Shown here: piece by piece, positions 2,635 through 18,337 of the stretch
Layout: each line of letters opens with the position of its first letter
Numbering within the stretch: the first letter of the stretch is position 1
NCBI GenBank assembly: GCA_946479805.1
Contig: CAMLHP010000028.1
Location: 1 to 18,423 of the forward strand
DNA from: an uncultured Gemmatimonadota bacterium
GTDB lineage: Bacteria; Gemmatimonadota; Gemmatimonadetes; Gemmatimonadales; GWC2-71-9
Reading direction: 5' to 3'
DNA length: 18,423 nt
Position numbers and translations under genes: made by a program
Notes under the pieces: model-generated
The model's database searches: none
Told to the model about the DNA's origin: nothing
Seen by the model: only the letters and a program-made list of their open reading frames with translations

Positions 2635-3165
2635 TCATTGGGGTACTGGATTGGTCAGCAGCCGCGCCCGAAACTGGGAGTGACAAGCAATGCATCCGCG
2701 CTGCACCGTGTTCAGCTGGGTCAGCACCTCGTCGGTCTGCCCCGCCGCAGCGGCCTCGCTCAGCAGCACCGACTGGTCGTGCACTTCCAGATCCAGCCGC
2801 TCGAACTCGGCCATCTCGTCGCCCAGTATTCCGTGGATCCGTTCGAGATCCTCTTGGGCAATTGGCGCGTGCGCCGCGATCGCGGTGGCGCTCCTTGCCA
2901 CCATCGAGTCGTTGTCGGTCATCAAGCCGTAGGTGATCGACGTCATCAGCGATCCCAGGCGCTGCATGATCGGCAGCAGTGCCTCGCCCTCGCCTTCAGC
3001 CTCGTGCGCATGATCGGCTGCCGGCTGAGCGCCCGAGTCGCCGTCAGCGGCAGGGGTGACCGCATGGTTGCCGGAAGCCTCGCCAGCTGGGTCCCGACCG
3101 CCATCGCTGCAAGCTGAGGCAAGTACCAGGACGCCAGTCATCATCAGTACGGCAATTGCTCGCAT
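2635..3165 (-). CDS. lipoprotein monoheme cytochrome, class II (cytochrome c'-like)
   Basis: A 176-aa protein. I chose the ATG at 3165 because it has an AGGGAGGGG ribosome site and gives a lipoprotein signal ending A-S-A-C (Cys19). Residues 20-61 are a linker rich in Ala, Asp, Glu and His. The rest is helical and ends with one heme-c motif, C158-I-A-C161-H162, 15 residues from the C-terminus. That placement is the hallmark of class II cytochromes (c', c-556), which are four-helix bundles. The sixth ligand could be a Met of the first helix (Met67 or Met74), or absent as in c'. Class II cytochromes carry electrons or bind NO; which applies here is unknown. It lies between the FMN reductase (84 bases upstream) and the amidase (21 bases downstream), in the same direction. 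Confidence 0.8.
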   Translation of the reverse strand: MRAIAVLMMTGVLVLASACSDGGRDPAGEASGNHAVTPAADGDSGAQPAADHAHEAEGEGEALLPIMQRLGSLMTSITYGLMTDNDSMVARSATAIAAHAPIAQEDLERIHGILGDEMAEFERLDLEVHDQSVLLSEAAAAGQTDEVLTQLNTVQRGCIACHSQFRARLLTNPVPQ

Positions 3166-3249
3166 GACCCCTCCCTGTCGCTGAATGAGGATTCCCGCCC
3201 TGCCCCTTCCTGCCACTCCACCCTCGATTTGCCGGGAAGGTGCCCTGCC

Positions 3250-6894: not shown

Positions 6895-8238
6895 GTGCGC
6901 AACCTCTTGTTGGCGAGCGCCGGACTGCTCCTGCCGCTGGGCGCCCTGCATGCCCAGTCGCTTTCCCTGGGTGAGGCCATGCGGCGCGCCGACTCGGCGG
7001 CCTACGCCAACCGTATCGCCGTGGGTGAGGCCGGTGCCCGAAGCGGACAGGCCACCGCGGCATTGCAGGGCATCCTCCCAACCCTAAGGGTCGAGGGCGG
7101 CTTTACCCGAACCGACGATCCGCTGGGCGCCTTCGGGTTCCTGCTGCGCCAGCGCGCCGTTACTGCGGCCTCATTCGATCCCGCCCGGCTCAACTCGCCC
7201 CTCGCCCTCAACAACTGGAGCAGCGGTTTGGTGGCGGAGGTGCCGCTGGTCAATGTGGACGCCTGGTACGCCCGCGGAGCCAGCCAGGCGGCGCGGGATG
7301 CGGGCAAGGTGATGAGTGGATGGATCCGGGAAGCCAGCCGTGTGGATGTGGTGCGGTCCTACTACGGCGCGGTCCTCGCCGGCGAGCAGGTCCGCGCCCT
7401 CGAACAGGCGTCAGCCGCTGCTCATGGGCACCTCAAGCAGGCTGAATCGATGGTTGCGAATGGACTCGCGACGCGGTCCGACGCGCTCCTGGCAGGGGTC
7501 CAGGCAGGACAGCTCGACGCCGACCTGATAGCTGCGCGGAACAACGCTGCCCTCAGCCGGAAGCGGCTGGCCCTGCTGCTGGGCACCCCGGGTGACACCG
7601 CCTTTCTCCTTCCCGACAGCCTGCCGGGCGCAGTCCGGATCCGGGCCTTCGTCGCCGGGGCCAACGCCGCGGAATCCGGGGAACGACTGGACCTTCGGGC
7701 CACGCGCCATCAGCTCATCGCCGCTGAACGGGACGCCCGCCGCGCAACCGCGCGCTTCCTGCCGAGGGTGAACGCGTTTGGCCGCTACGACTGGAATGCC
7801 CCGTCGAGCCTCTTCGGCGGCGACCAAAGCTTCACTATCGGGCTGATGGCTTCGTGGACGCCCTTCGCCGGAGCTGGTGTATTGGGCGACAGGCAGGCGG
7901 CACGTGCTCGGGTCGACATCGCGCGCGCCCGGCTGGAAGCAGCCGAGGCAGCGGCGGCACTCGAGCGGGAGGCAACCGCGCGAAATGTTGAAGTGGCCCT
8001 CGCCCGGATGGCGATCAGCGAAAACGCGGTGCGCCAGGCGGAGGAGGCCCACCGGATCGTTGCCCGGAAGTACAGCGGGGGCCTTGCGACCGTGGCCGAA
8101 CTTCTGGGCGCCTCCGCCACCGAAACCGCGACCCGCATGGGCCTGGCCGACGCGCGCTTCCAGGCGATCGTGGCCGAGGCCGATCGACGTCAGGCGACCG
8201 GGGGTGACCTCCTGGCGCTGTCCGCCCTGGAGGAGTGA
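6895..8238 (+). CDS. TolC-family outer membrane efflux protein
   Basis: A 447-aa outer-membrane factor. The start is a GTG at 6895, 6 bases after GAGGG. A signal peptide (RNLLLASAGLLLPLGALHA) is followed by LSLGEAMRRADSAAYANR, the usual first helix of TolC-like proteins. The rest shows the two-repeat TolC architecture: long Ala/Arg/Glu-rich helices (about residues 120-225 and 335-440) and short beta segments (about 65-110 and 285-325). It would form the trimeric channel through which the RND pump expels its substrate. It is the first gene of the operon. Its last codons contain the GGAGGAG ribosome site of the adaptor gene, and the two genes are one base apart. Confidence 0.88.
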   Translation: MRNLLLASAGLLLPLGALHAQSLSLGEAMRRADSAAYANRIAVGEAGARSGQATAALQGILPTLRVEGGFTRTDDPLGAFGFLLRQRAVTAASFDPARLNSPLALNNWSSGLVAEVPLVNVDAWYARGASQAARDAGKVMSGWIREASRVDVVRSYYGAVLAGEQVRALEQASAAAHGHLKQAESMVANGLATRSDALLAGVQAGQLDADLIAARNNAALSRKRLALLLGTPGDTAFLLPDSLPGAVRIRAFVAGANAAESGERLDLRATRHQLIAAERDARRATARFLPRVNAFGRYDWNAPSSLFGGDQSFTIGLMASWTPFAGAGVLGDRQAARARVDIARARLEAAEAAAALEREATARNVEVALARMAISENAVRQAEEAHRIVARKYSGGLATVAELLGASATETATRMGLADARFQAIVAEADRRQATGGDLLALSALEE

Positions 8239-8239
8239 G

Positions 8240-9247
8240 ATGAGAACCCTGTTGCTCTGCTGCCTTGCCGCCGGTGCCGCCTCCTGCGGCTACGACGCGG
8301 CGCCCGAAGAATCCGCGGCTCCCAGGCGCGAGGGAACGCCGATCGCGGTGATCGACACCATGCTGCCCGCGATCTTCGAAGCGGCCGGCACCGCCGAGCC
8401 GCTTCGTTCAGCCACTCTCAGTACCAGGCTCATGGGCACCATCACCGACGTCGCTGTGCTGGAGGGCGACCGGGTGGCGCGGGGACAGGTGCTGGTTCGG
8501 ATCGACGCCAGCGAACTCGACGCTCGGCGATCCCAGGCGCGCGCGGCCTTCGCGGAAGCCGAGGCGGTGCGCCGCGATGCCGAGGCCCACGCGGCTCGTA
8601 TCAGCGGGCTGTATCGCGACAGCGCCGCCACTCGTGCCCAGCTCGACCAGGCCGAAACCGGGCTGGCCCGGGCGGTGGCTGCAATCGGCGCGGCCCGGGG
8701 CGCGCTGGCAGAAGTGGACGCGATGTCCGGTTACGCCGAGGTGAAGGCGCCGTTTGCCGGGACGGTGACCCGGCGAAATGTCGATCGGGGTGACTTCGCG
8801 GCGCCGGGAGCGCCACTCGTCACGGTGGAGGACGCCTCGCGCATGCGGATCCGGGCCGTCACCAGTCCCGGCGCAGTGAAGGGTTACGGCCGCGGCGACA
8901 CCGTGCAGGGTTCGATCGAGGGGACACCCATCACCGCCACTATCGAAGGCATCGTCCCCGACGGCGGGAATCTGGTGATGGTCAACGCGCTGGTGCAGAA
9001 CGATGGCCGGTTCGTGAGCGGCAGCGCAGCCCGCCTGGCGCTGGCGCAGTCGGCCCGTCCCGCGCTGCTGGTGCCGGCAGCCGCGATCACCGAGGAGGGC
9101 GACCTGACGGGAGTCCGTGCAGTGGCTGGCACAGGTGCCGAGTTGCGCTGGATAAGGATCGGGCGGGCGGTGGGCGACAGGGTGGAAGTGCTGTCAGGAC
9201 TGCAAGCGGGTGACAGCGTGCTGGTGGCAAACCCCGGGGCGCGCTGA
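8240..9247 (+). CDS. RND efflux periplasmic adaptor (membrane fusion lipoprotein)
   Basis: A 335-aa adaptor. The N-terminus RTLLLCCLAAGAASC ends in a lipobox-like A-A-S-C, so it is probably anchored to the inner membrane by a lipid. The barrel-sandwich (lipoyl) half-motifs are present: MGTITDVAVLEGDRVARGQVLVRID before the hairpin and GYAEVKAPFAGTVTRRNVDRGDFAAPGAPLVTVED after it. Between them lies a helical hairpin of about 90 residues rich in Ala, Glu and Arg. C-terminal beta-barrel and membrane-proximal domains follow (LLVPAAAITEEG, GLQAGDSVLVANPG). It links the RND pump to the TolC-like channel. The ATG directly follows the upstream stop, indicating coupled translation. Confidence 0.9.
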   Translation: MRTLLLCCLAAGAASCGYDAAPEESAAPRREGTPIAVIDTMLPAIFEAAGTAEPLRSATLSTRLMGTITDVAVLEGDRVARGQVLVRIDASELDARRSQARAAFAEAEAVRRDAEAHAARISGLYRDSAATRAQLDQAETGLARAVAAIGAARGALAEVDAMSGYAEVKAPFAGTVTRRNVDRGDFAAPGAPLVTVEDASRMRIRAVTSPGAVKGYGRGDTVQGSIEGTPITATIEGIVPDGGNLVMVNALVQNDGRFVSGSAARLALAQSARPALLVPAAAITEEGDLTGVRAVAGTGAELRWIRIGRAVGDRVEVLSGLQAGDSVLVANPGAR

Positions 9248-9249
9248 CC

Positions 9250-12200
9250 ATGGGAATCGCTGGCCAGGTCGCCCGCAGCTTTCTGCGTTCGCCACTGACG
9301 CCGCTCGTCACGCTGGCATCGCTGGCGATGGGCGCCATCGCGGTGCTCGGGACACCGCGGGAAGAGGAGCCGCAGATCTCGGTGCCGATGATCGACGTCA
9401 TCGCGGCCCTGCCGGGAGCGAGCCCTGCGGAGGTGGAGAACCTCCTGACCCGCCCGATCGAGAAGCAGATGTGGTCCATTCCCGGTGTCGAGTACATCTA
9501 CTCGATGGCGGCCGAGGGAATGACGCTGGTCACCGTTCGATTCAAGGTGGGCGAGGACCAGGATCGAAGCGTGAGCCGGGTGCACGCGAAGCTCATGTCC
9601 GCCATGGACCAGGCGCCACCCGGTGCCACGCCGCCCCTGGTCAAGCCGCACACCATCGACGACGTGCCGATCCTGGCGCTCACCCTGCACAGCTCGCGCT
9701 ACGGCTCCAATGAGCTGCGGCAGCTTGCCACCCAGCTGGTGGACGAGATCCGGACCCTGCCCTCCACCGCGGGGGCATTCGTCATCGGCGGCGAGCCACG
9801 CCAGCTCCGCGTGACCCTCGATCCGGCGGCGCTCGCAGCCAGCGGCGTCACCCCAGGCGAGGTGGTCCAGGCGCTCCAGGCCGCAAACGTCCGGCTGGAT
9901 GCGGGGGAATTCGCTGCCGCCGGGGAGGTGTTCCTGGTCTCGGTTGGTGCGCCCATTCGCACCGCGGAGGACGCCGGCGAGATCATCGTTTCCAGTCGCG
10001 GACGGACGGTCGCCCTGCGCAACGTGGCCCGGGTGGAGGAGGCCTTCGGCGAGCCCGCCTCCTACGTGAGTCACACTACTCGCGAGGCCGGCACCGAATC
10101 GGCCGTCACGATAGCCATCGCCAAGCGTCCCGGTGCCAACGCAAGCAGCATCTCCCACGCGGTGCTGGAGCGGGTGGAGCAGGCCCGCGACCGGCTGCTT
10201 CCCGCCGGCGTGGGTCTCGAAGTCACCCGTGACTACGGCGAGACCGCGAGCGAAAAGGCCAATGAGCTGATGCTGCACCTGCTCATTGCCACCCTCTCCG
10301 TGACCGCCCTGATCGGGATCTTCCTCGGCTGGCGCGAGGCGCTGGTAGTCCTGGTGGCGGTGCCGGTCACGCTCGCGCTGACGCTGTTCGTCTATTACGC
10401 CCTGGGCTACACCCTCAACCGCATCACCCTGTTCGCGCTCATTTTCTCCATCGGCATCCTGGTGGACGACGCCATCGTGGTGGTGGAGAACATCTACCGG
10501 CACCTTCAGCTCGGCGCCGGTGCCCCGGAAGTCGCGGCGGTCGAGGGCGTTGACGAGGTCGGCAATCCCACGATCCTGGCCACGTTCACCGTGATCGCGG
10601 CGATCCTGCCGATGGCCATGGTAAGCGGACTCATGGGCCCGTACATGCGGCCCATTCCTGTCGGGGCGTCGGCCGCGATGCTGGCCTCGCTGGCGGTGGC
10701 GTTCATCGTCACGCCGTGGCTTTCGCTTCGGCTGCTGCGCGTCCGGACCCAGGGCGGAACCAGCGCTGCGGACGGCCCTCGCCATGGCGAGTCGGCGGGG
10801 ACGCGCACGGCCCGGATCTACTCCAGGGTCATGACGCCCCTCATCGAGCGGCGCGGGCTGCGGCTGGCGTTCTACGGCGGCGTGGCCGCACTGCTGCTGC
10901 TTTCGGTCGGCCTGGTCGCGGTCAGGCTGGTCGAGGTCAAGATGCTGCCTTTCGACAACAAGTCGGAGTTTCAGGTCATCCTGGACTACCCGGAGGGCAC
11001 CACGCTCGAGCAGTCGAATGCCGGGGCGATGGCAATCGCCGGCTGGCTCCAGGGCGTGGAGGAGGTGCGGAGCACCCAGGTGTACGCCGGTACCGCGGCT
11101 CCGTTCAACTTCAACGGCCTGGTCCGGCACTACTTCATGCGGCAGGGCGCCAACGTCGCGGACGTCCAGGTCAACCTGGTCCCCAAGGACGAGCGCAGCC
11201 GCCAGAGTCACGCCATCGCTGTGGCTATCCGGCCCGCTGTGGATTCGATAGCTCGGAGGTTCGGGGCCAATGCCAAGATCGCCGAGATTCCGCCGGGTCC
11301 GCCCGTCCTCTCGACCCTGGTCGCCGAAGTGTATGCGGCGGATGACTCGATCCGGCTCGAGGCGGCCCGGCGGGTGAGGTCGGTGATGGAAACGACGCCG
11401 GGAGTGGTGGACGTCGACTGGACCGTCGAGGCAGCCGAAGGAAAGTGGCGTTTCGGCGTGGACCCGGTGCTGGCCGCCGAGTCTGGCGTGAGCGTCGAGC
11501 AGGTGGCCCAGGTGCTGGCGCTGTCGCTGTCCGGCCGGAACGCGGGGCTGGTGAATGCCCCGACCGCGCGCGAGGGAGTGGAGATCAGGGCGCGCCTTGG
11601 CCTTGCCGACCGTAGTTCCGTCGAGGGCCTGCTGGCGGTGCCGGTGGCCACCCCGCGGGGACCGGTGCCGCTGGCCCGCTTCGTCCGGGTCGAGCAGGCA
11701 ACCCGGGAGCCGGTTCGGGTCCGGAAGAACCTGCGGCCGGTCATCTATGTCACCGCCGACGTGGCGGGCAGGATCGAATCACCGGTTTATGCCATCCTGG
11801 CGATGAACCGCGCGCTCGACACGGTCGAGGTGGCCGGCGCGTCCATCGAGCGCTACAACGCGGTGGCACCGGAGCGTCTCGACCAGACCGCTCTCAAGTG
11901 GGATGGCGAGTGGCAGGTGACGATCGAGGTCTTTCGCGATCTGGGCCTCGCCTTCGCTGCGGTGCTGGTGCTGATCTATGTGCTGGTGGTGGGCTGGTTC
12001 AGGTCCTTCCGGGTGCCACTGGTCATCATGGCCCCGATTCCGCTCACGCTTATCGGCATCCTGCCGGGCCACGCGGTGAGCGGGGCATTCTTCACCGCCA
12101 CTTCGATGATCGGCATGATCGCGCTCGCCGGGATAGTGGTCCGCAACTCGATCCTGCTGGTGGACTTCATCGAGCTGGCGGAAGGACGGGGCCGGTCGCT

Positions 12201-12468
12201 GCGGGAAGCGGTGCTGGAGGCGGGCGCAGTGCGGTTCCGCCCGATCGCACTGACGGCGGCCGCAGTGGTCATCGGCGGAATCGTCATGGTGCTCGATCCG
12301 ATCTTCCAGGGTCTGGCAGTCGCGCTCATGAGCGGCGCGGTGGTGGCAACCCTGCTCACGATGATGGTGGTTCCCCTGCTGTACTGGGAGCTGCGCCGTC
12401 GCGAAGGCGGCGTGCAGCAGCGTTCGAAATTCGAATCGTCAACCGGGAGTTCTGGTCATGTGCAATGA
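9250..12468 (+). CDS. RND efflux pump, inner-membrane permease
   Basis: A 1072-aa pump, the usual length for AcrB/HAE-type RND transporters. The N-terminal helix is followed by the porter domain (VIAALPGASPAEVENLLTRP), then TM2-6 with the proton-relay pair Asp406-Asp407 in SIGILVDDAIVVVENIYRHL. The second half repeats the layout (MLPFDNKSEFQVILDYPEGT, later the TM8-12 block). In TM10 the residue matching the essential Lys940 of AcrB is Arg965 (GIVVRNSILLVDF). The substrate cannot be read from sequence; the GTPREEEPQ and DD features suit a hydrophobe exporter better than a heavy-metal CusA-type pump. The ATG is 2 bases past the adaptor stop with a poor ribosome site, so coupling is likely. The end overlaps the DUF2892 gene by 11 bases. 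Confidence 0.93.
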   Translation: MGIAGQVARSFLRSPLTPLVTLASLAMGAIAVLGTPREEEPQISVPMIDVIAALPGASPAEVENLLTRPIEKQMWSIPGVEYIYSMAAEGMTLVTVRFKVGEDQDRSVSRVHAKLMSAMDQAPPGATPPLVKPHTIDDVPILALTLHSSRYGSNELRQLATQLVDEIRTLPSTAGAFVIGGEPRQLRVTLDPAALAASGVTPGEVVQALQAANVRLDAGEFAAAGEVFLVSVGAPIRTAEDAGEIIVSSRGRTVALRNVARVEEAFGEPASYVSHTTREAGTESAVTIAIAKRPGANASSISHAVLERVEQARDRLLPAGVGLEVTRDYGETASEKANELMLHLLIATLSVTALIGIFLGWREALVVLVAVPVTLALTLFVYYALGYTLNRITLFALIFSIGILVDDAIVVVENIYRHLQLGAGAPEVAAVEGVDEVGNPTILATFTVIAAILPMAMVSGLMGPYMRPIPVGASAAMLASLAVAFIVTPWLSLRLLRVRTQGGTSAADGPRHGESAGTRTARIYSRVMTPLIERRGLRLAFYGGVAALLLLSVGLVAVRLVEVKMLPFDNKSEFQVILDYPEGTTLEQSNAGAMAIAGWLQGVEEVRSTQVYAGTAAPFNFNGLVRHYFMRQGANVADVQVNLVPKDERSRQSHAIAVAIRPAVDSIARRFGANAKIAEIPPGPPVLSTLVAEVYAADDSIRLEAARRVRSVMETTPGVVDVDWTVEAAEGKWRFGVDPVLAAESGVSVEQVAQVLALSLSGRNAGLVNAPTAREGVEIRARLGLADRSSVEGLLAVPVATPRGPVPLARFVRVEQATREPVRVRKNLRPVIYVTADVAGRIESPVYAILAMNRALDTVEVAGASIERYNAVAPERLDQTALKWDGEWQVTIEVFRDLGLAFAAVLVLIYVLVVGWFRSFRVPLVIMAPIPLTLIGILPGHAVSGAFFTATSMIGMIALAGIVVRNSILLVDFIELAEGRGRSLREAVLEAGAVRFRPIALTAAAVVIGGIVMVLDPIFQGLAVALMSGAVVATLLTMMVVPLLYWELRRREGGVQQRSKFESSTGSSGHVQ

Positions 12469-12667
12469 ACTGGTGATCCGGCGCATCGCCGGACTGTTCG
12501 TGATGGGCTCACTGGCACTGGGCTGGTGGGTTCACCCTGCGTGGTTCCTGTTCACCGCGTTCGTGGGCTTCAACCTGTTCCAGTCGAGCCTGACCCGGTT
12601 CTGCCCGCTCGAGCGCATACTGGGCGCCAGCCGCCTCTTCGGGTGCCGGCCCCGCGGGACCGAGTGA
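12458..12667 (+). CDS. DUF2892 (YgaP-type) small membrane protein
   Basis: A 69-aa membrane protein with two helices, about residues 9-24 (RIAGLFVMGSLALGWW) and 28-45 (AWFLFTAFVGFNLFQSSL), then the family hallmark F-N-L-F-Q-S-x-x-T-R-F-C-P-L-E-R-I-L. DUF2892 domains also occur fused to rhodanese in YgaP and are often near sulfur- or redox-responsive ArsR genes. Two Cys (in RFCPLE and LFGCRP) lie near the C-terminus. GGGAG sits 8 bases before the ATG, which is inside the RND gene. It closes the efflux operon. Its role there is unknown. Confidence 0.82.
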   Translation: MCNELVIRRIAGLFVMGSLALGWWVHPAWFLFTAFVGFNLFQSSLTRFCPLERILGASRLFGCRPRGTE

Positions 12668-12669
12668 CT

Positions 12670-12993
12670 TCAGCGCCTCCGCAGCAGCTTGCTCCTGCGG
12701 TCCAGGTCGCGCTCGAGCTGCCCGCAGGCGAGGTCGCAGAGCTGGAATACCTTGGGGTCGGATATGCAGTACCACGTGGTCGTGCCCTCCTTCCGGCGGG
12801 ACACGAAGCCCTGCTGGTGGAGGACCTGGAGGTGCTTGGAGACGTTCGCCTGCCCTCCACCAGTCCTTTCAGCCAGGCTGCCGACGGAGTCTTCGCCGCT
12901 GCGCAGCGCGTTGAGGAGCCGGAGCCGCATCGGCTCGGCCAGCGCCCTGAAGCGCTCGGCGACACTGGCGGCGGTGGCATCTGTCAGTTCCAT
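12670..12993 (-). CDS. ArsR-family regulator, Cys-containing, likely controller of the efflux operon
   Basis: A 107-aa winged-helix regulator (108 aa if the adjacent GTG at 12996 is used; the ATG at 12993 is better spaced from the weak GGG site). ERFRALAEPMRLRLLNAL, the recognition helix GGGQANVSKHLQVLHQQG and the wing VSRRKEGTTTWYCISDP are typical of the family. Three Cys are in the C-terminal part (residues 76, 86 and 90): one in W-Y-C and two as L-C-D-L-A-C on the dimerisation helix. That arrangement could sense thiol stress or a metal, but the CxC metal box of ArsR is absent. The gene converges on DUF2892 with 2 bases between stops, so the two transcripts must overlap. Confidence 0.88.
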   Translation of the reverse strand: MELTDATAASVAERFRALAEPMRLRLLNALRSGEDSVGSLAERTGGGQANVSKHLQVLHQQGFVSRRKEGTTTWYCISDPKVFQLCDLACGQLERDLDRRSKLLRRR

Positions 12994-13014
12994 CACGGTG
13001 CCCGGGTTAGTGAC

Positions 13015-13037
13015 TTGTTAACTACCAAGTAGTATAA
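13015..13037 (-). promoter_or_regulatory. candidate arsR promoter and operator
   Basis: Upstream of arsR, an inverted repeat ACTAC-CAA-GTAGT (13021-13033), with outer TTA and TAA, overlaps a good minus-strand -10 box TATACT (plus-strand 13031-13036). A poor -35 (TTCATT on the minus strand, 17 bases away) accompanies it. On the minus strand the right half reads TAGTTAACAA, matching TAGTTGAGAA at the efflux promoter in 8 of 10 bases. Autoregulation is the likely meaning. Confidence 0.55.
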
Positions 13038-13072
13038 GCCGGCTGGGCCCGGGAATGAAGTGCCGGCGCCGG

Positions 13073-13714
13073 TCACTGGTGGCTGACGCCGAAAGCGCGG
13101 CTGGCGGGATCGAATGTTATGATGGCGACATCGCCGGGCTCGAGCACCAGCGTGGTGTCGAGGATGAGCGACGGTGGCAGGGCGGTCTCCTCCCGCCGGC
13201 GGCGTTCCATGCGCTCGCGCTCGGACCGCCCCGCCTGAAGCTCCCGCCGCTCCTCATCGTCATCGTCGTCGTCATCATCATCGTGGTCGGCATCGCTGGC
13301 GGCCGGTGCCGAACCAGCCTCGCGCCTCACCAGCGACAGGTGGAGCGAATGATCGCCGCCCGCGACTTCGAAGTCGCGCAGGTAATGAATCGGGCGGTCA
13401 CTGCGGAGCCCCCCTCCGGTGATCAGCGACTGCTCCAGCCGGCGGCCGTCCACGCTCACCTCCAGCGCATAGGTGGCGAACCTGCCCTCGCATTCCACCT
13501 CTCGCCGCATGTGCTCGGGCAGGGCCGCGATCTCTTCTTCCGACAGCGTCCGGCAGGTCTCGATTCTTTCGGGGCGCGCGCTCCATGAGAGCCGGATCCG
13601 CGCGGCGTCACCCGTGTGCAGCGGGAGCGGGGTTGCGGAGCCGGCAGCAATCACAGCGACAGTGATCGCGCCCGCCACCACGCCACCAGCCCACCGCGCC
13701 AGGTGCGAGCTCAT
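13073..13714 (-). CDS. membrane-anchored, Asp-run protein coupled to the cytochrome b fusion
   Basis: A 213-aa protein I do not recognise. The ATG at 13714 overlaps the stop of the cytochrome b fusion as ATGA, with AAGGTG 7 bases upstream, so translation is coupled. Residues 9-28 are a signal or anchor helix, so the rest should face the periplasm. Residues 37-132 look like a beta domain with Cys54 and Cys75 (ETCRTL and VECEG), then VSVDGRRLEQSL and ending GDHSLHLSLVRRE. A highly charged region follows: D-A-D-H, nine Asp in a row (145-153), then E-E-R-R and Arg/Glu-rich sequence to about 176. The last 35 residues return to beta sequence. A metal-binding or electrostatic docking role is possible but unproven. 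It may be a partner or assembly factor of the fusion protein. Confidence 0.75.
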   Translation of the reverse strand: MSSHLARWAGGVVAGAITVAVIAAGSATPLPLHTGDAARIRLSWSARPERIETCRTLSEEEIAALPEHMRREVECEGRFATYALEVSVDGRRLEQSLITGGGLRSDRPIHYLRDFEVAGGDHSLHLSLVRREAGSAPAASDADHDDDDDDDDDEERRELQAGRSERERMERRRREETALPPSLILDTTLVLEPGDVAIITFDPASRAFGVSHQ

Positions 13715-15279
13715 CGCTTCACCTTCTTTCTGGCCAGGGGCACCGGCTCGCACTCGAGATCCGGTTCGCCCAGGTCCTCGTTAGCGCGGTCGAGTGCGGC
13801 GAAGCCCTCGACGATAGCGTCGAACTGGGCCAGCGCTTCCTTCGCAGCGCCGGGAGCCAGCGTCATCACCTTGACCCGGCGCCGGTCCACCCGCTCCTGC
13901 AGTTCCGCCTCGCGGTCGTTGAAGAGGCGCTCGCCCAGCCACTTGGGTCCTTCCCGGCTCACGCAATCGCGCGGGGGGCAGCCGCAGACAACCACGCCGG
14001 GAGCACCGCTCCGGACCAGCATCTCCACCACCGACGAGTGGAGGTTGCCGACGCAGGTGACCATGTGGAGGTGAGCCCCCCGCGAGCGGAGCGCATCGAG
14101 CTGCTGCTTCGGCGCCTGCGCGCAGCAGACCGCAACGACCGGCTTCGCTGCCAGGTGGCCGATGTCGGCACCGATCACCAGCCGCACATCGGCCAGCTGG
14201 TCGCGGCCGGTCCGGCCCGGTGGCCCCACACCCATCGGCGCGCAGGATCCCGCGCAGATCCCGCAACTCACGCAACGCACCGGGTCGACCAGCGCCACCA
14301 GTGTGGGCCGGTCGTCGTCGCGCGGCACCATGGTGATCGCTTCCCAGGGGCAGTCCTGCGGGCACTGGTTGCACCCGGTGCAGAGTCTGGGGTCCACCAC
14401 GCTGGGTGCCCAGTTCTCGATCCTCGGCCGGCGCGTCAGTCGCGGAACCAGCAGCAGCCCCAGCGCCGCCGCGATGCCGACGCCCCAGCTCAGCCCCGCC
14501 GGAGCCCGTTCGGAGAGAGGGAGCCACCACGACGAGAAAAGGTTGATCGGGGTCTGGGCAGGAATGCTGAATGGGTCCGCCGCGGGCCCGAGGCTGGCCG
14601 GGACCAGGATCGCGGCGATCGTGAGCACCGCGACGATGCTCCAGCTGAGCCGCCTGGGCGGCAGCAGCGTGGGCCGCGCCACCCGCGAGACATGGAGCCA
14701 GAGCAGCGCGCCCATCGCCAGCGGCAGGCCGATATGTACGAAGAGATTCACGAAGAAGAACGCGCTCGGGACCGGACGGTCGCCTGCGAAGATCCGGCTG
14801 AGCGGTTCGGAGAAGATCGGGAGCACGTCGAGCAGGCGAGCGCCCTCGCGTGCCAGCCGCTCGCCGAAGCTGTCCCACGCCATGACGAACCCGGTCCAGG
14901 CGCAGACCAGTCCGGCGCCCAGCATGACCAGGCCCGACAGCCACGCGAGGGTACGGGGGCCCCAGCTCCGCGCCTGCGCAAACATCCGGACCAGGTGCAG
15001 CACCGCGGCGACGATGAAGAGGTCGGAGGCGTAGCGGTGGAGGGTCCGCATCCAGCTGCCGAGCCAGGGATCGGCCGCGATCCGGGCCACCGATTCCGAG
15101 GGAGCACCGACCCGATACACGAAAATCAGGTAGGCCCCCGTTGCCAGCAGCAGCACCAGCATGGCAACGGCGATGGTCCCGCTCTGGTGGAGGGGATTCC
15201 AGCGCCACCCCCACGCGCGGTTGGCGCCGGCGTCGAGGGCGCCGAGCAGGCGGCGGGCACCACGTTCGAGAATTCTCAT
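13711..15279 (-). CDS. cytochrome b - 2x[4Fe-4S] ferredoxin - MvhD-like fusion protein
   Basis: A 522-aa redox fusion. Residues 1-200 are a cytochrome b N-terminal (four-helix, diheme) domain with ligands His81/His95 and His182/His196; both pairs are 14 apart, as in bc1 cytochrome b. Two more helices follow (about 212-231 and 264-280), which returns the chain to the cytoplasm if the N-terminus is cytoplasmic. Residues 300-346 hold two [4Fe-4S] motifs, C300xxC303xxC306xxxC310P and C336xxC339xxC342xxxC346. Residues 380-495 match the MvhD / hydrogenase iron-sulfur (delta) subunit family, with VCC (385-386), TC409, VCGC (432, 434) and C439. MvhD normally passes electrons through a [2Fe-2S] centre to HdrA-type partners. 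This protein could therefore connect the quinone pool to a cytoplasmic Fe-S enzyme; no HdrA or hydrogenase gene is in the window. It is divergent from the Rrf2 gene across a palindrome. Confidence 0.85.
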   Translation of the reverse strand: MRILERGARRLLGALDAGANRAWGWRWNPLHQSGTIAVAMLVLLLATGAYLIFVYRVGAPSESVARIAADPWLGSWMRTLHRYASDLFIVAAVLHLVRMFAQARSWGPRTLAWLSGLVMLGAGLVCAWTGFVMAWDSFGERLAREGARLLDVLPIFSEPLSRIFAGDRPVPSAFFFVNLFVHIGLPLAMGALLWLHVSRVARPTLLPPRRLSWSIVAVLTIAAILVPASLGPAADPFSIPAQTPINLFSSWWLPLSERAPAGLSWGVGIAAALGLLLVPRLTRRPRIENWAPSVVDPRLCTGCNQCPQDCPWEAITMVPRDDDRPTLVALVDPVRCVSCGICAGSCAPMGVGPPGRTGRDQLADVRLVIGADIGHLAAKPVVAVCCAQAPKQQLDALRSRGAHLHMVTCVGNLHSSVVEMLVRSGAPGVVVCGCPPRDCVSREGPKWLGERLFNDREAELQERVDRRRVKVMTLAPGAAKEALAQFDAIVEGFAALDRANEDLGEPDLECEPVPLARKKVKR

Positions 15280-15287
15280 GGGGGGTC

Positions 15288-15319
15288 TTGCGCAAAGTTT
15301 ATCATGTTCGCATGATAAA
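15288..15319 (+). promoter_or_regulatory. divergent control region with a perfect 9-4-9 palindrome
   Basis: The arms TTTATCATG (15298-15306) and CATGATAAA (15311-15319) are perfect inverted repeats around TTCG. They lie in the 64-base gap between the leftward cytochrome b fusion gene and the rightward Rrf2 gene. A possible Rrf2 promoter is TTGCGC (15288-15293) with a 17-base spacer and CATGAT (15311-15316), so the right arm covers its -10 box. I could not place a convincing leftward promoter. The arrangement fits an operator through which the Rrf2 protein controls both directions. Confidence 0.65.
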
Positions 15320-15343: not shown

Positions 15344-15766
15344 ATGTGGCCGACGAGCACCGTCCAGCAGGCGATCAGTGCCGTGCTCTGCATCGCTGAG
15401 GCGCGGGGTGAGCCAATGCGAGCCAGCGCCATAGCGGCGGCCACGGGCGCGGCGGGCAACTACCTGTCGAAGATCCTGCATTCGCTGGCGCGGGCCGGCG
15501 TGCTCAGCTCCGAACGAGGCCCCCGGGGCGGTTTTCGCCTGGCCCTGCCGGCGGACCAGCTCACCCTGGCCGCCATCGCCGAGCCATTCGAGCGGCAGGG
15601 CCAGCGGCGCTGCCTGCTCGGCCGCCCCACCTGCGGTGACGCCAACCCCTGCCCTGCCCACGAGCGATGGTCGGGGATTGCCGCCGGCATCGAGAGCTAC
15701 TTCCAGACTACCACCATAGCGCGCCTGCTGGACCAGGTTCCCGTTCAAGGCGCGAGCCGGGCCTGA
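15344..15766 (+). CDS. Rrf2-family Fe-S transcriptional regulator (NsrR-like)
   Basis: A 140-aa regulator. TVQQAISAVLCIAEARGEPMRASAIA is the usual Rrf2 opening, with Gln in place of the more common Ala/Tyr pattern. The helix-turn-helix is GNYLSKILHSLARAGVLSS with the wing RGPRGGFRLA. The cluster loop C90-LLGRPT-C97-GDANP-C103 (C-x6-C-x5-C, then PAHERW) has the three cysteines that hold a [2Fe-2S] or [4Fe-4S] cluster in IscR, NsrR and RsrR. Such clusters sense NO, redox state or Fe-S supply. The ATG at 15344 is set by the family's normal N-terminus; the ribosome site is weak. It lies directly upstream of the heme-copper enzyme genes and next to the palindrome, so it probably controls them (inference). 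Confidence 0.88.
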   Translation: MWPTSTVQQAISAVLCIAEARGEPMRASAIAAATGAAGNYLSKILHSLARAGVLSSERGPRGGFRLALPADQLTLAAIAEPFERQGQRRCLLGRPTCGDANPCPAHERWSGIAAGIESYFQTTTIARLLDQVPVQGASRA

Positions 15767-15791: not shown

Positions 15792-15965
15792 ATGGATCCG
15801 TCCGTGACCCCACCCGATGCCGCAGATGAGCCGGTGCCCATCGGCCAGCGGCTGTTCGACAACATGTACCTGCTCCTCTTCCTCGGCGTGGTCGTCATGC
15901 TGGTGGTGTTCACCGCCTGGGGAATGTGGGAGATCATGTCCATGCCCGAAGGCACACTCCCTTAG
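15792..15965 (+). CDS. 57-aa single-helix protein, candidate subunit IIa of the heme-copper enzyme
   Basis: A short gene starting at an ATG that follows GAGGAAG by 5-6 bases and ending at a TAG that overlaps the ribosome site of the subunit II gene. The N-terminal 15 residues are acidic and Pro-rich (MDPSVTPPDAADEPVP). One strong transmembrane helix follows (about 24-43, NMYLLLFLGVVVMLVVFTAW), then a short tail with MWEIMSMPEGTLP. Its size, single helix and position just before subunit II match the small subunit IIa of ba3-type (B-family) enzymes, such as the 34-aa one of Thermus. There is no sequence motif to prove it. Confidence 0.75.
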   Translation: MDPSVTPPDAADEPVPIGQRLFDNMYLLLFLGVVVMLVVFTAWGMWEIMSMPEGTLP

Positions 15966-15974
15966 GAGGATCGA

Positions 15975-16580
15975 ATGCTGACGAAAGTCCATACCGGCCT
16001 CGATCCGGTCCCCGGGGTGTGGTGGAAGCCCGCGCACAAGGCGGAGATGGTCTGGGTGTCGATCGCCTTTGTCTGGTGCATCGTGCTGTTCGCAATGATG
16101 CCGCTCTGGCACCTGAAGGGCGGCCAGAACCCCGCCGGCGTGAGGACCCGGGTCGAGCCCAAGGCGTTCTACGCCCGCACCATGGAGTTCGCGAAGCAGT
16201 ATCAGGTGGGCACCGACGCAGGCATGCCGATAGCCGCGCCGCCCCCGGGCGCCGATGTCTATCTCGTGGCGCTCTCCTTCCAGTGGTACCCGGTGCTCCA
16301 GCTGGAGCAGGGCAAGGAGTACATGCTCCACCTCTCCGCGCTGGACGTCAATCATGGCTTCTCGCTCTACCCGCTCAACATCAACTTCGCGGTGGTGCCG
16401 GGGTTCGACTACGCGCTCCGGGTGACGCCGACGTCGTCCGGTGACTTCCGCATCATCTGCAACGAGTTCTGCGGCATCGGCCACCACACGATGGTGGGCC
16501 GGGTGATCGTGGTTGACTCCACGGGCGCCGCGGTTGCCGACAATCCCGACGCAACGATCGAGCATGGAGGCGCACTGTGA
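15975..16580 (+). CDS. heme-copper enzyme subunit II with CuA site
   Basis: A 201-aa subunit with one N-terminal transmembrane helix (about 25-46, MVWVSIAFVWCIVLFAMMPL) and a periplasmic cupredoxin domain. All CuA ligands are visible: His127 (DVNHGF), Cys162 and Cys166 with Glu164 between them (CNEFC), His170 and Met173 (GIGHHTM). One helix rather than two is typical of the B-family (ba3). It would accept electrons from a soluble cytochrome c or blue copper protein and hand them to the low-spin heme of subunit I. AGGAGGA lies 4 bases before the ATG, inside the end of the preceding gene, and the stop overlaps the next start as GTGA. CuA argues against a cNOR-like enzyme, whose small subunit carries heme c. 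Confidence 0.92.
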   Translation: MLTKVHTGLDPVPGVWWKPAHKAEMVWVSIAFVWCIVLFAMMPLWHLKGGQNPAGVRTRVEPKAFYARTMEFAKQYQVGTDAGMPIAAPPPGADVYLVALSFQWYPVLQLEQGKEYMLHLSALDVNHGFSLYPLNINFAVVPGFDYALRVTPTSSGDFRIICNEFCGIGHHTMVGRVIVVDSTGAAVADNPDATIEHGGAL

Positions 16581-18337
16581 CCACCTCGGCCCTCGACAGC
16601 ACGGCCGCCCAGGGCTGGCGTACCTGCCCGATCACCAGCCGCCGCATCGACCTCCAGGCGGAGAAGCTCATACGCGCCAACGCAGTCGTGGCGGTGGTGG
16701 CGCTCCTGGTCGGCGCCGTCGCCGCGCTGCTGCTGGCGCTGACCCGCTGGCAGGCGATCCATCTCCTGCCCGCCGAGTGGTACTACCGCATACTCGGCGT
16801 GCACGGGATGAACATGCTGATCTTCTTCATCATCTTCTTCGAGATGGCGGTGCTCTGGTTTGCCGCCACCGTGCTGCTGAATGCGCGTCCGGCCGCACCG
16901 AGGTACGGCTGGTTCAACTTCGGCATGATGCTGGTCGGTGCGCTGATGGTCGAGTGGATGCAGTGGAGCGGCAAGGCCGACGTGCTGTACACCTCGTACC
17001 CGCCGCTCAAGGCCCATCCGCTTTTCTACCTGGGCATCATCCTCTTCGCGGTGGGTGCGCTCAGCGTCGTGGGGCAGTTCTTCGCCACGCTCACCATCGC
17101 CAGGCGCGAGAAGACCTACACCGGCTCGATGCCGCTCGTGGTGTATGGCGCCATGACCGCGGCGATCATCGCCGTGATCACCCTGCTCCACGGGGCGATG
17201 GTCTACATCCCCACTTTCCTCTGGTCGATGGGACTGATCGACAGCGTCAACCCGCAGATGTACCGGCTCCTCTGGTGGGCGCTTGGCCATTCCGCCCAGC
17301 AGATCAACGTCGCCGCGATGGTGGCCATCTGGTACATGCTGGGCGCGCTCACGGTTGGCGCGGTGGTGCTCAACGAGAAGGTGAGCCGCTGGGCCTTCGT
17401 GCTCTACATCCTGTTCATATCGATGGCCTCGGCCCACCACCTGCTGGTGGATCCCGGCTTCGGGCCGGCATGGAAGATCGTGAACACCTCGTACTTCATG
17501 TACATGGCGGTGCTCGCGTCCATGATCCACGGGTTCACGGTGCCGGCCGGCATCGAGCTGGGGATGCGGCTCCGCGGCTTCACCAAGGGCCTCTTCGGAT
17601 GGCTCACCAGGGCGCCTTGGGGCGACCCCGGATTCTCGTCGCTCGTGCTTTCGGTGGTGGTGTTCGGATTCTTCGGCGGCATCACCGGCGTCACCATCGG
17701 AACCGAGCAGATCAACATCATCGCCCACAACACCCTGCGCATACCGGGGCACTTCCATGCGACGGTGGTGAGCGGAACTGCGGTGGCGTTCATGGGCGCC
17801 ACGTACTATCTCCTGCCGCTCATCTTCCGCCGCAAGGTTTCCTTCTGGCGGCTCGCGAAGATCCAGCCCTACATGTTTGCCGGCGGGCTGCTCCTGCTCG
17901 AGTTCGGCATGACCTTCGCCGGCAGCTTCGGGGTGCCGCGGCGCCACTGGGACATTTCCTTCGCGCAGTCGGCCCACGACGTGCCCTTCAGCCCGGTGGT
18001 TGACCTCTTCATGGCAATGGTCGGGATCGGCGGTATCATCGCCGCGACCGGGGCGTTCGCCTTCATCCTCATCGCCGTGTCGTCGGTGTTCTTCGGTGAG
18101 CGGATAACCGAGTTCCCGCGCGGCACCGCGGTTGCCGGCCTCCCGCAGGGCCTCACCAATCCCCCGGTCCACGGGCCGAACGTGGACGCGGCCAACGCCG
18201 AGCTGCACTCGCCCGCCCGTGGATGGGTGGGACCCACGCCGGGAACGCTGGTGCTTGTGGGCATCTTCTTCCTGGCGTTCATGCTCTACTACTTCACCAA
18301 CTGGAAGCTGCTGAGCTTCCTGTGGAAGATCGGCTAG
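16577..18337 (+). CDS. B-family heme-copper subunit I lacking the crosslinked Tyr: candidate nitric oxide reductase
   Basis: A 586-aa subunit, similar in size to Thermus ba3 subunit I (562). The start is a GTG overlapping the subunit II stop, with GGAGG upstream. Low-spin heme ligands are His76 (GVHGMNM) and His394; the high-spin heme ligand is His392 (IPGHFHATV). CuB ligands are His238 (WWALGHSAQQIN) and His287-His288 (SAHHLLVDPGF). The HNTxxxPGHFH stretch places it in the B-family. At His+4 on helix VI, where oxygen reductases carry the Tyr crosslinked to the CuB His and cNOR carries the FeB ligand Glu, this protein has Gln242. The cbb3-type alternative Tyr on helix VII (6 before His287) is Ile281. 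In the ba3 K-channel helix, Ser and Thr are kept (Ser315, Thr321) but the Thr312 equivalent is His318. The metal sites are intact, so this is probably a functional enzyme with another substrate, most likely NO. Automatic annotation would call it cytochrome c oxidase. Confidence 0.9.
   Translation: MTTSALDSTAAQGWRTCPITSRRIDLQAEKLIRANAVVAVVALLVGAVAALLLALTRWQAIHLLPAEWYYRILGVHGMNMLIFFIIFFEMAVLWFAATVLLNARPAAPRYGWFNFGMMLVGALMVEWMQWSGKADVLYTSYPPLKAHPLFYLGIILFAVGALSVVGQFFATLTIARREKTYTGSMPLVVYGAMTAAIIAVITLLHGAMVYIPTFLWSMGLIDSVNPQMYRLLWWALGHSAQQINVAAMVAIWYMLGALTVGAVVLNEKVSRWAFVLYILFISMASAHHLLVDPGFGPAWKIVNTSYFMYMAVLASMIHGFTVPAGIELGMRLRGFTKGLFGWLTRAPWGDPGFSSLVLSVVVFGFFGGITGVTIGTEQINIIAHNTLRIPGHFHATVVSGTAVAFMGATYYLLPLIFRRKVSFWRLAKIQPYMFAGGLLLLEFGMTFAGSFGVPRRHWDISFAQSAHDVPFSPVVDLFMAMVGIGGIIAATGAFAFILIAVSSVFFGERITEFPRGTAVAGLPQGLTNPPVHGPNVDAANAELHSPARGWVGPTPGTLVLVGIFFLAFMLYYFTNWKLLSFLWKIG

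Follow-up and report, generated by a model that had tools for sequence, protein, structure and literature searches.

eNOR is an established class of nitric oxide (NO) reductase that is identified by a Gln residue at the position of the cross-linked Tyr, whereas the corresponding residue is Asn in sNOR and CuANOR, Asp in gNOR and Glu in cNOR and qNOR, according to the available passages of PMC8756737 (Table A4, where Hemp & Gennis, 2008 is cited). The same passages describe subunit II of eNOR as a cupredoxin and report that eNOR is mislabelled as cytochrome c oxidase. A biochemical characterization of eNOR is stated in the available part of PMC11388526, and the eNOR of Ardenticatena shares an operon with nirK (PMC4653789). 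In this study, a stretch of 18,423 nucleotides from an uncultured Gemmatimonadota bacterium (contig CAMLHP010000028.1; hereafter the window) was analyzed. The gene at 16577-18337 on the plus strand almost certainly encodes subunit I of a new member of this known class in Gemmatimonadota. The locus as a whole is best explained, with high confidence, by an eNOR subunit I in an operon probably controlled by an Rrf2-family regulator, with a neighbouring cytochrome b protein as its proposed dedicated redox partner.

The protein of 586 amino acids, read from a GTG start, retains the six metal-binding His residues that the original prediction had recognized, namely the CuB ligands His238, His287 and His288 together with His76, His392 and His394. 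By analogy with the ba3 oxidase of Thermus, we take His392 to be the high-spin heme ligand and His76 and His394 to be the low-spin heme ligands. The B-family oxygen reductases are marked by a Tyr four residues past the first CuB His, where the original prediction had read Gln242. In the alignment with ba3 there is no gap from His238 across the next 15 residues, and Gln242 therefore occupies the position of Tyr237, as claimed. Ser315 lies opposite Ser309 and His318 opposite Thr312 in the same alignment. The place at which cbb3 oxidases carry their Tyr, six residues before the His pair, is held by Ile281, again as had been read, and is Ile or Leu in 95 of 95 aligned rows. The window subunit I is a B-family-type heme-copper protein with all six His residues.

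The conservation of these positions was followed in two sets of relatives, found by searching with the window protein and with its homolog from Thermomicrobium roseum; the motif was used in neither search, and the best 120 proteins of each were taken from among thousands of matches (the first set includes P0004, whose sequence is that of the window protein itself). Gln242 is found in all 240 of these best-scoring relatives, so that it is neither chance nor a sequencing slip in the predicted protein. His238, His287, His288, Tyr253, Ser315, His318 and His392 are likewise each present in 240/240. His76 and Glu89 are kept in 239 apiece, with one gap each, His394 in 239, with a single Leu, and Ile281 in 238, the other two having Val. 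The change of ba3 Thr312 to His, to which the original prediction had drawn attention, is thus real but is no peculiarity of the window protein. A further sample comprised 80 genome loci, the best 80 of at least 448 confirmed candidates; because one of the patterns by which they were fetched contained the Gln motif, they lend no independent support to this residue. As a separate observation, Lys replaces the low-spin ligand His394 in two eNOR-type proteins of Thermus thermophilus plasmids (L003, 7983-9668; L004, 6007-7689).

A maximum-likelihood tree was constructed from 62 rows, consisting of the window protein, 46 of the 80 loci, four plasmid homologs, three of the listed proteins and eight Tyr-bearing B-family rows from plasmids; the broken L011 was omitted, and the tree was drawn without sNOR, gNOR, nNOR, bNOR and the purified Rhodothermus enzyme. 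A branch with 100/100 support divides the 54 Gln rows from the eight Tyr-bearing ones, which is the separation from oxygen reductases on which the original prediction had been staked; the tree program flagged long branches meeting inside the outgroup. The window row groups with P0032 (Gemmatimonadales), L019 (Acidobacteriota) and L023 (Gemmatimonadetes), within a starred set of 16 rows that are mostly from Gemmatimonadota, and the homologs from Thermus, Thermomicrobium and Ardenticatenales belong to the same clade. Since sequence, subunit II, tree and neighbourhood all fit, the protein is assigned to eNOR. The B-family-derived NO reductase that had been proposed is thereby supported, and the choice between eNOR and sNOR that had been left open falls to eNOR by the Gln/Asn distinction in the available passages of PMC8756737. 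The window enzyme would accordingly be expected, from its sequence, to reduce NO.

A different view is that another donor replaces the active-site Tyr and that the enzyme reduces O2 in vivo. The fold and subunits are indeed ba3-like, homologs are annotated as cytochrome oxidases, and genes of an oxidase-like setting are common in the 80 loci (SCO in 42, heme O synthase in 35). However, Tyr is lacking at both the A/B and the cbb3 positions in the aligned rows, Gln is universal among the listed relatives, the clade stands apart from the Tyr-bearing rows and there are associations with nirS, nirK and nosZ, so that such an oxygen reductase is considered to be very improbable. An ordinary ba3 or cbb3 oxidase was ruled out by the active-site residues and the clade. 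The other NO reductases, that is sNOR, gNOR, CuANOR (bNOR), cNOR and qNOR, were set aside by the residue list in the available passages of PMC8756737 alone, with no such sequences in the alignment. NO dismutase was also set aside: in the available passages of PMC3413370 these enzymes are relatives of qNOR with one His changed to Asn, whereas the window protein keeps six His.

Subunit II is encoded immediately upstream (15975-16580, plus strand), the last 4 bases of its gene being also the first 4 of the subunit I gene. It carries the CuA motif CNEFCGIGHHTM, of the form C-x-E-x-C-x3-H-x2-M, in agreement with the accompanying CuA subunit of the original prediction, and its best matches in the PDB are to subunit II of Thermus ba3 (1.3e-18). 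A cupredoxin domain of this kind in place of heme c is a feature of eNOR. The motif is present in 81/81 subunit II proteins checked, including that of the window, and a subunit II occurs in 80/80 eNOR loci. Directly 5' of it, in a position like that of subunit IIa, lies a reading frame for a 57-amino-acid membrane protein with one helix by hydropathy (15792-15965, plus strand); similar small open reading frames (ORFs) are found in 71/80 loci. The operon thus reads Rrf2 regulator, 57-amino-acid protein, subunit II, subunit I.

In the mechanism proposed here, electrons would enter at the CuA site of subunit II and pass through the low-spin heme (His76/His394) to the high-spin heme (His392) and CuB (His238, His287 and His288), where the reaction 2 NO + 2 e- + 2 H+ -> N2O + H2O would take place; Gln242 would stand where oxygen reductases need Tyr for cleavage of the O-O bond. 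The protons would come from the cytoplasmic side, by way of an altered K-type channel made up of Glu24 of subunit II, Tyr253, Ser315 and His318. Tyr253, Ser315 and Glu24 correspond to ba3 Tyr248, Ser309 and Glu15 of subunit II, Glu24 being the first residue of its alignment, and the window family appears to conserve a proton-channel-like set of residues.

The candidate redox partner is encoded at 13711-15279 on the minus strand, divergently from the eNOR operon. According to Pfam and NCBIfam models, its 522 amino acids combine in a single chain a bc1-like cytochrome b, with four heme-ligand His residues, two [4Fe-4S] sites and an MvhD/FlpD domain; the profile matches cytochrome b/b6, HdrA and MvhD chains, and the four His and 12 Cys residues are invariant in 31/31 rows. 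The gene is accompanied by that of a small protein (13073-13714, minus strand) that has a membrane segment at its N terminus and shares two Cys residues with its homologs; its start overlaps the cytochrome b stop, and homologs of it occur in 49/80 eNOR loci. This small protein also contains a run of nine Asp residues that is absent from the 10 homologs compared. The ORFs at 12526-13032 and 13055-13588 on the plus strand, for which no credible family match was found, were taken to be spurious frames beside or across this gene.

The association of the partner with eNOR is close to one-to-one. In a set of 121 Gemmatimonadota genomes, where eNOR was called at an identity of at least 66% to P0001 (the next matches reach at most 36%), eNOR and the cytochrome b protein were each found in 30; the partner is present in 29/30 eNOR-positive but only 1/91 eNOR-negative genomes (Fisher p ~1e-25, a value that ignores kinship). 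The exceptions are G138, with an eNOR fragment at a contig end only, and G128, with the cytochrome b only. In 28 of the 29 pairs both genes lie on one contig, 861-1631 bp apart. Among 289 genomes of Alphaproteobacteria, 18 contain eNOR and 19 the cytochrome b, all 18 being shared, so that the partner is found in 18/18 eNOR-positive versus 1/271 eNOR-negative genomes (p ~1e-27, again ignoring kinship); where a genome held many candidates, the best few were scored (4-5 in Alphaproteobacteria). The arrangement is mostly divergent in Gemmatimonadota loci and mostly downstream in the same direction in proteobacterial loci. In Defluviimonas sp. SAOS-178_SWC (L001) the eNOR and partner genes share one plasmid. 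Forty loci are flanked by 5 kb or more on both sides; in 39 of these a cytochrome b-type protein lies nearby, and in the remaining one, L091, it is encoded elsewhere in the genome (G147:C76), outside the fetched stretch. The cytochrome b module follows eNOR and not nitrite reductase: among the 30 eNOR-positive Gemmatimonadota, 29 contain it, whereas nirS or an above-cut-off nirK is present in 7.

The cytochrome b-[4Fe-4S]2-MvhD protein is therefore proposed as a partner that most likely links a cytosolic donor, through two membrane-spanning b hemes, to the periplasmic or quinone side that would feed eNOR. A paralog bears on this proposal: in 9/80 loci (L053, L056, L059, L063, L065, L073, L075, L080 and L093) eNOR has near it a cytochrome b joined in one polypeptide to a [2Fe-2S]/FAD/NAD(P)H reductase-like arm, beside the Fe-S/MvhD form in eight of them and by itself in L093 (Castellaniella defragrans DSM 12141). 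The L093 arm is most like BenC (217.6 bits, with a model cut-off of 430), and the other arms were judged by their likeness to it. That one membrane cytochrome occurs with two kinds of cytosolic redox arm suggests an exchange of electrons with the cytosol, and the reductase-like arm points to a cytosolic reductant.

The partner might instead be a quinol-reactive enzyme that oxidizes quinol on the periplasmic side and sends the second electron inward through the Fe-S arm, without acting as a wire from the cytosol. Residues 30-291 align with residues 24-310 of yeast cytochrome b, so that the fit extends past the b6 part to the full cytochrome b. At what we take to be the place of the bc1 PEWY motif, 28 of 31 rows carry Asp; the next residue is Trp in 17 of the 31 rows and Leu in 7. 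However, the acid is replaced by Asn in the window protein and in two other rows, the paralog with its NAD(P)H reductase-like arm argues for a cytosolic donor, and no Rieske domain was detected among the 29 window ORFs scanned with Pfam, a scan confined to the window. This alternative is regarded as rather unlikely. A broader proposal, which is put forward tentatively and which we consider doubtful as yet, concerns the majority of the eNORs that lie outside the Thermus/Thermomicrobium branch. Each would form the output end of a two-part machine, the other part being either the cytochrome b-HdrA/MvhD-like protein or the paralog with the NAD(P)H reductase-like arm. This other part would carry electrons across the membrane and so connect NO reduction with a low-potential or NADH pool in the cytosol, without the involvement of complex III. 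In the boldest form of the proposal, the cytochrome b would retain a quinol site and NO reduction would drive a bifurcation in which one electron is forced onto the Fe-S arm in the cytosol. The tightness of the link makes the electron source of eNOR testable by gene removal.

The cytochrome b and Rrf2 genes diverge from a spacer that contains a perfect palindrome (15298-15319), TTTATCAT-gttcgc-ATGATAAA, the full sequence of which is TTTATCATgttcgcATGATAAA. The regulator itself (15344-15766, plus strand; PF02082, 1.7e-24) has three C-terminal Cys residues in the arrangement C-x6-C-x5-C and may for this reason carry an Fe-S cluster. It passed only the superfamily model TIGR00738; the IscR model gave 60 bits, far under its cut-off. 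An Rrf2 match occurs in 16/80 eNOR loci. The palindrome is a probable Rrf2 operator, from which the regulator would control the operon, presumably in response to NO. A 14-position pattern was built from this palindrome and its relatives. Where the cytochrome b gene is divergent (20 loci, counting the window), 17 loci score 10-14 at the matching place, above every one of the 48-59 background windows per locus. A further site, TTTATCATatccacATGATAAA, was seen in L033, where the ORF start was placed too far upstream, giving 18/20; no related palindrome was seen at that place in L071 and L081. Since the pattern was drawn from the same loci, this conservation is a description and not an independent test.

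NirS-like genes (at least 300 bits to the Thermus nitrite reductase) were found in the fetched flanks, 10 kb at most, of 9/80 loci, that of L032 being confirmed by PF02239. NirK-like multicopper oxidases occur in 5/80; two were compared with TIGR02376, of which L018, with its NirK ~5 kb from eNOR, passed and L066 failed. A nitrite reductase and an Rrf2 gene are neighbours of one plasmid-borne Thermus eNOR copy, and NirK is over the cut-off in 9 of a set of 20 eNOR genomes. In the Gemmatimonadota set, nosZ is present in 17/30 eNOR-positive versus 27/91 eNOR-negative genomes (Fisher p 0.015, with no correction for kinship); G139, which is counted among the 17, has a partial match below the cut-off. 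The counts for nirK over the cut-off are 6/30 versus 7/91 (p 0.09) and those for nirS 2/30 versus 0/91 (p 0.06). NirK above the cut-off, eNOR and NosZ occur together in 3/121 genomes (G001, G024 and G109), in a search that did not extend to nitrate reductase. The available passages of a large Gemmatimonadota survey report norB in some genomes and no complete denitrification pathway (PMC10581226).

The role of the enzyme could be the detoxification of NO, induced through Rrf2, rather than respiration, which would be compatible with eNOR and concerns its role only. The small number of eNOR-positive Gemmatimonadota with a nitrite reductase (7/30), the adjoining Rrf2 gene and palindrome and the presence of hemerythrin genes in 18/80 loci speak for this role, whereas the presence of nosZ in more than half of the same genomes, the nirS and nirK neighbours across several phyla and the conserved proton-channel-like residues speak against it. 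Detoxification is a serious possibility to which we give somewhat less than an even chance.

Several observations weigh against the overall explanation of an Rrf2-controlled eNOR with a dedicated partner. The eNOR of Rhodothermus marinus, a purified and characterized enzyme, is not in the best 80 loci, nor does it appear under that name among the 120 + 120 proteins listed, few of which are named. In the K channel, Tyr253, Ser315 and His318 would fit a one-channel feature of eNOR, yet the counterpart of ba3 Tyr244 is Val249 in the window and Val (212) or Ile (28) in the 240 relatives. NO sensing by the regulator finds no echo in the NsrR model, which gave 24 bits against a cut-off of 182. The link to nirK or nirS is weak (7/30 versus 7/91 genomes). 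The Thermus and Thermomicrobium loci L002-L004 lack a cytochrome b partner, and none was found when the two plasmids behind L002 and L003, though not the chromosomes, were searched whole; the partner is therefore not needed in every eNOR. Finally, the available passages of PMC13274419 describe eNorB as dependent on quinol, which would give the electrons a different path.

If the assignment to eNOR is correct, the enzyme makes the greenhouse gas N2O from NO, while its genes often go under the name of cytochrome oxidase. It had been claimed that such an organism would be missed by norB surveys, and this holds in part. Plain annotation does mislabel the homologs, as 'cbb3-type' or 'ba3-type cytochrome c oxidase subunit I', and Accumulibacter UBA5574, listed without Nor in the available passages of PMC6446978, encodes Gln-type eNOR subunits I and II (L091, contig DIME01000185.1). 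However, eNOR is not missed everywhere, because newer surveys count it, as seen in the available passages of PMC12569097, which mentions 67 Nor sequences, and PMC10359470.

Some further features were observed. In 11/80 eNOR loci there is a second heme-copper-oxidase-like protein that keeps the counterparts of His76, His238, His392 and His394 (L020, 11807-13258; L024, 2321-3694; L039, 11704-13215; L053, 15563-16984; L059, 8748-10454; L063, 19716-21119; L072, 5602-7032; L083, 8867-10249; L089, 15311-16675; L090, 6457-7851; L093, 13199-14635). Ten of the 11 are without both His residues of the CuB pair and that of L053 keeps one; PF00115 confirmed L020, L053 and L072. These proteins are seemingly CuB-less relatives near eNOR. 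In the window itself, a small CxxCH protein (2635-3216, minus strand) gives a weak match to cytochrome c' (25.7 bits, cut-off 26.5); cytochromes c' often bind NO. An RND efflux set of TolC-like outer-membrane protein, periplasmic adaptor and pump lies at 6895-12468 on the plus strand.

Compared with known systems, the window enzyme resembles eNOR in having Gln where the cross-linked Tyr would be, six His residues, a CuA subunit II upstream and a ba3-like fold. It differs in its Gemmatimonadota host and in the divergent cytochrome b-Fe-S-MvhD gene, which is unmentioned in the available eNOR literature passages. No description of this partner was found in the open-access literature searched, mostly as passages, and the consistency of its tie to eNOR may be new. 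With Thermus ba3 the enzyme shares the fold, the His ligands, the CuA subunit II and the equivalents of Tyr248, Ser309 and Glu15 of subunit II, whereas it has Gln for Tyr237, His for Thr312 and Val for Tyr244. NosR and NapGH are systems in which a membrane protein whose Fe-S module faces the cytosol serves one periplasmic N-oxide reductase. The partner would work in a similar manner but is built on a diheme-type cytochrome b. Its parts resemble the C-terminal ferredoxin of HdrA and the MvhD of heterodisulfide reductase/hydrogenase complexes on the one hand and the cytochrome b of bc1 and b6f complexes on the other; in contrast to both, in the window these pieces are fused in one membrane protein that adjoins the predicted NO reductase.

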